Assembly (NCBI GenBank): GCA_028290355.1
Contig: JAQGKA010000122.1
Span: 1-37,271 of the forward strand
Length of the DNA stretch: 37,271 nt
Direction: 5' to 3'
Source of the DNA: Tardiphaga sp.
GTDB taxonomy: Bacteria; Pseudomonadota; Alphaproteobacteria; Rhizobiales; Xanthobacteraceae
Shown one piece after another: positions 8,552 through 10,402 of this stretch. A model generated the notes under the pieces. That model did no database searches and was not told where the DNA came from. It was given only the letters and a program-made list of their open reading frames with translations. Position 1 is the stretch's first letter. Every line of letters begins with the position of its first letter. Made by a program: the position numbers and the translations under genes.

Positions 8552-9325
8552 TCAGTGCAGATCGGACACGTCAGGAGCCGATATCCCGGCGGCGGGACGG
8601 CCGGCGCGCGGGATGGGATCGAACACCGAGAACAGCAGCAAACCGGCGAAAAAACCGCCGATGTGGGCCTGCCAGGCAACGCTGGCGCCGTCGGCGCCGA
8701 TCGCAATCGAGCCGACGCCGAAGATGATGTTGACGCCGAACCAGACGGCGAGGAAGCCGAGCACGCGCGGATCGCGCAACGCACGCAACAGCGGCAGCGC
8801 CGGCACCCGGGCAGCCTCGTCGGCATCGCCGCGGTTGAACGACAGGAAACTGCCGCGCACGAAAGCAAAGCGGATCGCCGCCGCCATCGCGCCGGACACC
8901 GAGGCCGACGCGCCGATCATCGGCGCCAGCGCATGTTCATGGGTGACCAGATGCGCCGCGGCACCGCCGATCGCCGTCACCGCCATAAACAGAAAGAACC
9001 GGACGGCGCCGAAGCGGCGCGCCAGCGCGCTGCCGAACGGCAGCAGCCACAACACGTTGAAGCCGATATGGCTGAGATTGGCGTGCAGCAGCGAATAAGT
9101 GACAAAGCTCCAGATCTTGGCACCGGTGCCGCCGGGAAACGGCATCGTCAGCAGGGTCTGGTCGTAGCGCTTCGGAATGAAGCCGAACATCGCGATGACC
9201 AGGTCATCCAGATCCGGCGGCAGCAGCAGCCGCCCGACATGAATGACCGCCAGCAGCGCGACATAGGCCGTCAGGGCGCCCGGCAGGGTCAGGATCGGTT
9301 CGCGCGGGGGAACAGAGGAATCCAA
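8552..9325 (-). CDS. Rhomboid family intramembrane serine protease
   Basis: Multi-TM protein with HANLSHIGFNVLWLLPFG, MIGASASVSGAMAA (Ser region) and AHIGGFFAGLLL (His region). Confidence 0.88.
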   Translation of the reverse strand: MDSSVPPREPILTLPGALTAYVALLAVIHVGRLLLPPDLDDLVIAMFGFIPKRYDQTLLTMPFPGGTGAKIWSFVTYSLLHANLSHIGFNVLWLLPFGSALARRFGAVRFFLFMAVTAIGGAAAHLVTHEHALAPMIGASASVSGAMAAAIRFAFVRGSFLSFNRGDADEAARVPALPLLRALRDPRVLGFLAVWFGVNIIFGVGSIAIGADGASVAWQAHIGGFFAGLLLFSVFDPIPRAGRPAAGISAPDVSDLH

Positions 9326-9460
9326 GGGGTCAAAGGCCTGGTCAGCGGGCTCAAGCGAGCGATGGCCCCAAATAGGCGGCTTTGGCGGGGCGGCGCAAGC
9401 TCAGGATCGCCGCGGTCGGGCAAAAACGACAAGAGACTTGCCGGGATTTTCGAGGGGTCG

Positions 9461-9497
9461 TTGACGACCGCCGACATGTATCTTATAAAATACAACC
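9461..9497 (+). promoter_or_regulatory. Putative sigma70 promoter and operator of the TA module
   Basis: TTGACG (9461-9466), 17-bp spacer, TATAAA (9484-9489). Near-perfect 18-bp palindrome TGTATCTTATAAAATACA at 9477-9494 over the -10; toxin ATG at 9498. Confidence 0.7.
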
Positions 9498-9800
9498 ATG
9501 CTGACCGTCATTCGCACGGACGCATACGCGTCCTGGGCCCTCTCCCTGAGAGACGACCGGGCCAAGGCCCGGGTCGCCACACGGATTGACCGGCTCGGCC
9601 TTGGCAACCCCGGCGACGTCAAGCCGGTCGGCGGTGGCGTCAGCGAGATGCGGATCGATTACGGCCCCGGCTATCGCATTTATTACGCCCGCCACGAAGA
9701 CACGATCATCTTGCTGCTGTGCGGCGGGACGAAGAAGACCCAACAAGCAGACATCAAAGAAGCCAAACGTCTCTTCTCGGAATGGAAGAAACCGAAATGA
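9498..9800 (+). CDS. Type II toxin-antitoxin RelE/ParE (HigB-like) family toxin
   Basis: 100-aa protein; NPGDVKPVGGGVSEMRIDYGPGYRIYYARHEDTIILLLCGGTKKTQQADIKEAKRL is typical of this family. Confidence 0.92.
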   Translation: MLTVIRTDAYASWALSLRDDRAKARVATRIDRLGLGNPGDVKPVGGGVSEMRIDYGPGYRIYYARHEDTIILLLCGGTKKTQQADIKEAKRLFSEWKKPK

Positions 9801-10147
9801 CAAAAACAAGCCCCTACGATTCCGCCGAATTTCTGAATACGCCCGCGGCGATCGAATTCTATATGGCGGAGGCTCTGGAAACCGGTGATCCCGCTTTCAT
9901 CATGCACGCGCTCGGCGTCGTCGCGCGAGCAAAGAGCATGTCCGATATCGCTCGAAAGACCGGACTGGCGCGCGAGAATTTATACAAGGCACTCTCAGCC
10001 ACGGGCAGTCCTGAATTCTCGACGGTCCTTCGCGTTCTGAAAGCGCTGGATCTCAAGCTGACGATACAGCCCAAACCGGCCAAGGCAACGAAGCCGCTCC
10101 CGACAAAAAACGTCGTGCGAAAGAAGGGGGTAAAGGCTGCAGTCTGA
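9797..10147 (+). CDS. HigA-like HTH antitoxin (addiction module)
   Basis: Starts in a 4-bp ATGA overlap with the toxin stop; MSDIARKTGLARENLYKALSATGSPEFSTVLRVLKALDLKL is an HTH. Confidence 0.9.
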   Translation: MTKTSPYDSAEFLNTPAAIEFYMAEALETGDPAFIMHALGVVARAKSMSDIARKTGLARENLYKALSATGSPEFSTVLRVLKALDLKLTIQPKPAKATKPLPTKNVVRKKGVKAAV

Positions 10148-10181
10148 CAGCCAAGCGCGACATCGATCGGCGCGCAAAGAA

Positions 10182-10208
10182 AAAGGGAGGCCTGAGAAGC
10201 CTCCCTTT
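10182..10208 (+). terminator. Stem-loop terminator after the TA module
   Basis: AAAGGGAGGC (10182-10191) / GCCTCCCTTT (10199-10208) with a 7-nt loop. Confidence 0.7.
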
Positions 10209-10402
10209 GCCTGGACCGATCTTTCCGCGCCGGGTGGATTTTTCGAAATCCGATATCCCCACCCCTCCCCGCGCGACGACCAAACCTTGTTTGCAGCCAC
10301 CCTGGTATCAAACGTCCGCGTCGCAGGCCCCCTGGAGAAAAGCCCGCAGCGCCATGGAGTAAGGCGATACTACCCGCTCTCCACCGCTCGCCAACAACAT
10401 GC

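Follow-up and report, generated by a model that had tools for sequence, protein, structure and literature searches.

The window, the whole stretch of 37,271 nucleotides of Tardiphaga sp. DNA analysed here, carries on its plus strand two overlapping genes that form a small operon. The leading gene (9498..9800) encodes a toxin of 100 aa belonging to the TIGR02683/PF05973 Gp49-like family with a RelE/ParE/HigB fold, and scores 133.3 bits against TIGR02683, above the NCBIfam cut-off of 62.85 bits. Directly downstream, the second gene (9797..10147) encodes an HTH antitoxin of 116 aa that matches PF21716 and TIGR02684 (117.7 bits; cut-off 53.7 bits). By these family assignments, the locus is a type II toxin-antitoxin (TA) operon of the TIGR02683/TIGR02684 family, HigBA-like and toxin-first. 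The structure predicted for the toxin (mean pLDDT 91) is closest to Mycobacterium tuberculosis HigB1 (7nbu, TM 0.75) and HigB2, and because of this resemblance an RNase activity on the ribosome is plausible. At E <= 0.01, PF05973 is the toxin's sole Pfam match, PF05015 being absent; phmmer searches of the PDB returned no match for the toxin or the antitoxin, profile searches gave weak HigB1 and HigA matches only, and PADLOC a marginal match to the toxin only.

The start of the antitoxin gene and the stop of the toxin gene are fused in an ATGA overlap (9797-9800, plus strand; ATG 9797-9799, TGA 9798-9800), preceded within the toxin gene by GGAAG (9784-9788), a moderate Shine-Dalgarno (SD)-like site of the antitoxin. 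A rhomboid-domain gene lies divergently upstream (8552..9325, minus strand). After the antitoxin gene, a 12-pair hairpin AAAGGGAGGC..GCCTCCCTTT (10182-10208) resembles a terminator only on the minus strand; the plus strand lacks a T run. No Rfam match was found at 9200-10400. The nearby genes include CBS, patatin, PAS_5, PilZ and BTLCP genes, which place the TA module in an ordinary chromosomal setting.

Promoter, presumed operator and start codon

The best promoter of the 172-bp intergenic region is made of a -35 element TTGACG (9461-9466) and a -10 element TATAAA (9484-9489) separated by 17 nt, on the plus strand and adjacent to the toxin ATG, exactly where the sequence-only reading had put it. 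This -10 ends 8 nt before the ATG (9498-9500). An overlapping variant, TAAAAT (9486-9491, 19-nt spacer), ends 6 nt before it and would thus define the same start region. The two score 12.0 and 11.6 bits, respectively, with an E. coli sigma70 matrix. Among 2000 dinucleotide shuffles of the intergenic region, 12.0 bits was matched anywhere in 0.2% and at 5-9 nt from the ATG in 0.05%, and besides the overlapping -10 variant the region holds no other promoter above 6 bits. A stricter consensus scan does not report this promoter because it demands a T at -10 position 6, which TATAAA does not have. Judging from the position of the -10 and from the family-wide peak described below, transcription is predicted to start at 9496-9498, so that the promoter would place +1 at the start codon with a leader of 0-2 nt; for the favoured -10, ending 8 nt upstream, a leader of 1-2 nt is possible.

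The same DNA contains an 18-bp near-perfect palindrome, TGTATCTTATAAAATACA (9477-9494), the presumed operator of the antitoxin. Eight of its nine pairs match, C9482/A9489 being the exception, and it covers the -10 and stops 3 nt short of the toxin ATG, as previously described. The layout is that of an autoregulated TA promoter, in which a palindromic putative operator overlaps the promoter. By chance, such a palindrome is expected with P = 0.02 anywhere in the intergenic region and with P = 0.005 in the last 40 nt of that region. Palindromes of similar quality occur 18 times in the window, roughly once every 2 kb, and this one was rejected as stand-alone evidence. By itself it is unremarkable; what is remarkable is its position.

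Upstream of the ATG at 9498, the reading frame runs through ACC, ACA and AAT into a TAA stop (9486-9488) located 10-12 nt from the ATG. With this stop and no other start codon in between, 9498 is the only possible start; the next in-frame start of the toxin ORF falls deep inside sequence conserved in the homologue alignment, predicted strand 1 already occupying residues 3-6. Of the two objections named in the sequence-only reading, a start site well upstream of 9480 and homologues with a real start codon downstream behind its own SD, neither applies here. The absence of an SD between promoter and ATG is likewise borne out, the best anti-SD duplex in the 20 nt upstream having a free energy of +0.9 kcal/mol. 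The first 40 nt of the predicted transcript do not fold more stably than shuffled sequences beyond one s.d.

In the nearest relative collected (L083), which belongs to the same genus and whose toxin is ~73% identical, the -35, the start codon and the DNA between them form a conserved block, in contrast to the diverged DNA further upstream. TTGACGACCGC and TGTATCTTATAAAATACAACCATGCTG are unaltered, the -35 element included, the palindrome is identical and the spacer differs by 1 nt.

Promoter position and SD asymmetry among TA families

A total of 218 TIGR02683 loci were collected, their toxin starts were set by homology, and 177 remained after dereplication by upstream sequence. The promoter distances come from an E. 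coli-based model, which is a limitation. In 65 of the 177 loci, exactly 6 nt separate the end of the best promoter's -10 from the toxin ATG, and in 119 the distance is 5-8 nt; the distribution in shuffled upstream sequences is flat, at about 4 per position and without a peak. According to promoter numbering, a distance of 6 nt would make the A of the ATG the +1, and in relatives where it is 4-5 nt the start would by the same rule fall inside the AUG. When a score threshold is applied, the -10 lies 4-8 nt before the ATG in 123/177 relatives, 117 of which have no SD. Extending the scan 60 nt into the ORF leaves the peak in place (121 at 4-8 nt); only 14 of 170 strong best promoters then have their -10 inside the ORF. 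The same spacing is found without any matrix: TTGAC most often starts exactly at -35 relative to the ATG (30 relatives), and 63 of its 85 occurrences lie between -37 and -33. A pyrimidine occupies position -1 at 78% of the toxin starts versus 54% of the antitoxin starts, the preference that an initiator should show. Palindromes in which 7 or more of 8 pairs match are present in 114/177 relatives against ~10 expected from shuffles. The neighbouring genes display no promoter-distance peak.

This layout is encountered in Alpha-, Beta-, Gamma- and Deltaproteobacteria and in single relatives from Nitrospirae, Acidobacteria, Chlorobi, Treponema and Actinobacteria, several of which are metagenome bins. 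Plasmid copies that conform to it are those of pUM505 and an Acinetobacter plasmid, both at 6 nt, and of NAH7, at 7 nt. About 30% of the TIGR02683 relatives do not; some 15 possess an SD leader, among them distant members of which one is carried by an E. coli IncK plasmid and another by a Pasteurella phage. On the evidence of these comparisons, a promoter predicted to sit at the ATG is the norm of the family and not a peculiarity of the locus. The sequence-only reading had proposed the palindrome-to-ATG distance in homologues as a test, and its leaderless prediction is supported by the sharp promoter peak at 6 nt, by the position of TTGAC and by the pyrimidine at -1; its view of the arrangement as an oddity is overturned by the 123 relatives with the 4-8 nt spacing and by the other toxin-first families considered below.

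Several variations on this arrangement were observed. For the toxin of a Vibrio anguillarum plasmid (L252:698-703), the annotated start is the downstream member of a pair of adjacent ATGs, whereas the upstream one gives 7 nt, the family spacing. A second operator-like copy, AACCATAGTTGACA, overlies the -35 in L009, L011, L017, L019, L032, L044 and similar loci in addition to the copy at the -10/ATG, probably an indication of two-site cooperative repression. The operator half-sites differ strongly (TTCGCTTATAAGCGAA, GTAACATATATGTTAC, TGTAGCCTATAGGCTACA) in L123, L168, L183, L189, L204, L207, L158, L216 and L218, all of which keep the layout; operator specificity seems, from these sequences, to diversify within a fixed promoter-operator-ATG frame.

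The two genes of the family differ in their SD content. An SD core precedes 14% of the toxins, with a mean duplex energy of -1.5 kcal/mol versus -1.4 for shuffled sequences, and 83% of the antitoxins, with -7.0 versus -4.3 kcal/mol. The GGAAG of the present antitoxin (-4.1 kcal/mol) is weaker than the family mean and contains no core motif by the rule used. The proposed ATGA coupling of antitoxin to toxin is present at this locus and was discarded as a conserved feature, a -4 overlap being found in 23/166 relatives; what is conserved is the SD on the antitoxin.

The same computation was applied to other TA families of the same phylum, with 24-29 loci per family and gene order taken from the family and not per locus, the order of HicA being variable. 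Among toxin-first families (L219-L248, L285-L344), the promoter lies at the ATG in 17/26 loci of PF05015 HigB, 17/29 of BrnT and 9/24 of HicA; among antitoxin-first families (L255-L284, L345-L404), it does so in 0/29 loci of RelB, 1/27 of Phd/YefM and 0/28 of ParD. The contrast between 43/79 and 1/84 is highly significant (Fisher P ~4e-16). An SD core precedes the second gene in 70-88% of the toxin-first operons; in antitoxin-first operons, it precedes the first gene in 45-86% and the second one, the toxin, in 16-30%. The antitoxin therefore tends to have an SD in either order, and toxin-first operons appear, from their upstream regions, to reach this asymmetry by dropping the leader. A general rule might be drawn for type II TA operons outside mycobacteria, to which we give about an even chance of being correct: the antitoxin would have an SD and the toxin none whatever their order, and the toxin-first TIGR02683, HigB, BrnT and HicA modules would achieve this by fixing the start on the toxin AUG. 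Leaderless translation of the toxin would be expected to be weak in growing cells and to gain a relative advantage under stress, with changes in ribosomes or initiation factors.

Proposed mechanism and alternatives

The elements themselves, the unique start, the lack of an SD on the toxin, the conserved distance, the SD asymmetry and the recurrence of the layout in toxin-first families only can be read directly. From these we infer where transcription actually starts, that the operator is bound, that translation is leaderless and that the toxin:antitoxin ratio is affected. We consider it probable that an autorepressed promoter-operator places the 5' end of the mRNA at the toxin AUG, with leaderless translation of the toxin and SD-led translation of the antitoxin. 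Transcription would start at most 2 nt from the toxin AUG, driven by a promoter of the sigma70 type with its -10 embedded in the palindromic operator of the antitoxin. The toxin would be translated from the leaderless 5' end, and an internal SD would serve the antitoxin, with the ATGA coupling as an aid at the present locus. Binding of the antitoxin, probably together with the toxin, to the palindrome would block the -10 and the start site; once repression is relieved, the mRNA would yield much antitoxin and little toxin. Efficient antitoxin and inefficient toxin output would in turn maintain an excess of antitoxin in growing cells. It may be speculated that a scatter of the start site by 1-2 nt splits the transcripts into toxin-competent and antitoxin-only molecules and thereby sets the ratio. 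In Bradyrhizobium japonicum, a presumed relative of this host, 192 start sites coincide exactly with start codons (PMC4842269), common enough to make a leaderless layout workable in a host of this kind. Leaderless mRNAs are reportedly translated poorly in E. coli and well in mycobacteria (PMC3898074; PMC8485053).

The strongest competitor, which we nevertheless regard as unlikely, is a promoter that favours the antitoxin, as do hicAB P2 and that of Haemophilus influenzae toxTA; the toxin would be essentially untranslated from it and made from an upstream start instead. In hicAB and toxTA, an antitoxin-repressed promoter near or inside the toxin start gives transcripts that produce antitoxin only (PMC6957337). 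The lack of an SD on the present toxin fits such a promoter, and HicA is one of the families displaying the promoter-at-ATG layout. The spacing, however, is tuned to a +1 on the AUG, with a -10 inside the ORF in just 14 of the 170 strong best promoters, and a promoter that needed only to miss the toxin would not require such exactness; at the present locus, the predicted start is at the toxin AUG and not inside it. Moreover, the intergenic region offers no second promoter above 6 bits apart from the -10 variant, and a transcript from upstream would likewise carry no SD for the toxin.

A further alternative is ordinary translation from a short leader or without an SD, the real transcription start being upstream and the -10-like sequence part of the operator only. 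An AT-rich operator could mimic a -10, and many bacterial genes have no SD. Against this very improbable reading, the -35 is conserved outside the palindrome, correctly spaced and with its distance to the ATG fixed, and the distance peak is missing from neighbouring genes and from antitoxin-first TA families. A misplaced toxin start, which would make the layout an annotation artefact, is hardly credible: some relatives do have ambiguous toxin starts, such as the Vibrio plasmid copy mentioned above, but here the in-frame stop and the conservation of the protein from residue 1-3 leave a single possible start and contradict this explanation.

The TA field has yet to explain how toxin-first operons avoid an excess of toxin before the antitoxin is made. 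Fixing the start on the toxin AUG while giving the antitoxin an SD would be a simple answer applicable to several families. If the leaderless prediction is true, toxin synthesis would obey leaderless rules (70S initiation, strict AUG, kasugamycin tolerance), and TA output would be tied to the state of the ribosome without antitoxin proteolysis.

Comparison with known systems

TA transcripts without a leader are well documented in M. tuberculosis, and lambda cI and PaaR2 are known cases of an autoregulated first gene that is leaderless. Outside M. tuberculosis, the openly searchable literature yielded no description of a leaderless toxin mRNA in these toxin-first families. The family-wide leaderless toxin, tentatively predicted from sequence in Pseudomonadota toxin-first modules, and the contrast with antitoxin-first ones may be new, though the silence of that literature is weak evidence for it.

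The closest known modules are the TIGR02683/TIGR02684 pairs themselves, HI1419/HI1420-like modules such as the RelE/ParE toxin-antidote pair of Pseudomonas aeruginosa plasmid pUM505, which belong to the same families, have the toxin first and show no structural difference. The pUM505 pair has the same layout as the present locus, its -10 ending 6 nt before the ATG. HigBA modules with a PF05015 HigB share the toxin-first order, the RelE-like fold, the HTH antitoxin and, in the 17 loci counted above, the promoter at the ATG; they differ in that the toxin described here matches PF05973/TIGR02683 instead of PF05015. In hicAB P2 and toxTA P2, an antitoxin-repressed promoter also adjoins the toxin start of a toxin-first operon, but the toxin is not made from P2 and the toxTA start lies ~30 nt inside the ORF (PMC6957337).

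Of the 37 TA pairs of M. tuberculosis that have a primary start site, 32 lack a leader (PMC3898074). That organism has no leader on a quarter of all its genes, whereas the predicted leaderless state described here characterizes toxin-first modules and is seen mainly in Pseudomonadota, in which only a minority of genes are leaderless. In lambda cI and in PaaR2 of paaR2-paaA2-parE2, the start site is the AUG of the first gene, overlapped by the operator (PMC8630535). The leaderless gene is the repressor in both of these cases; at the present locus, it would be the toxin, and the repressor comes second with its own SD.
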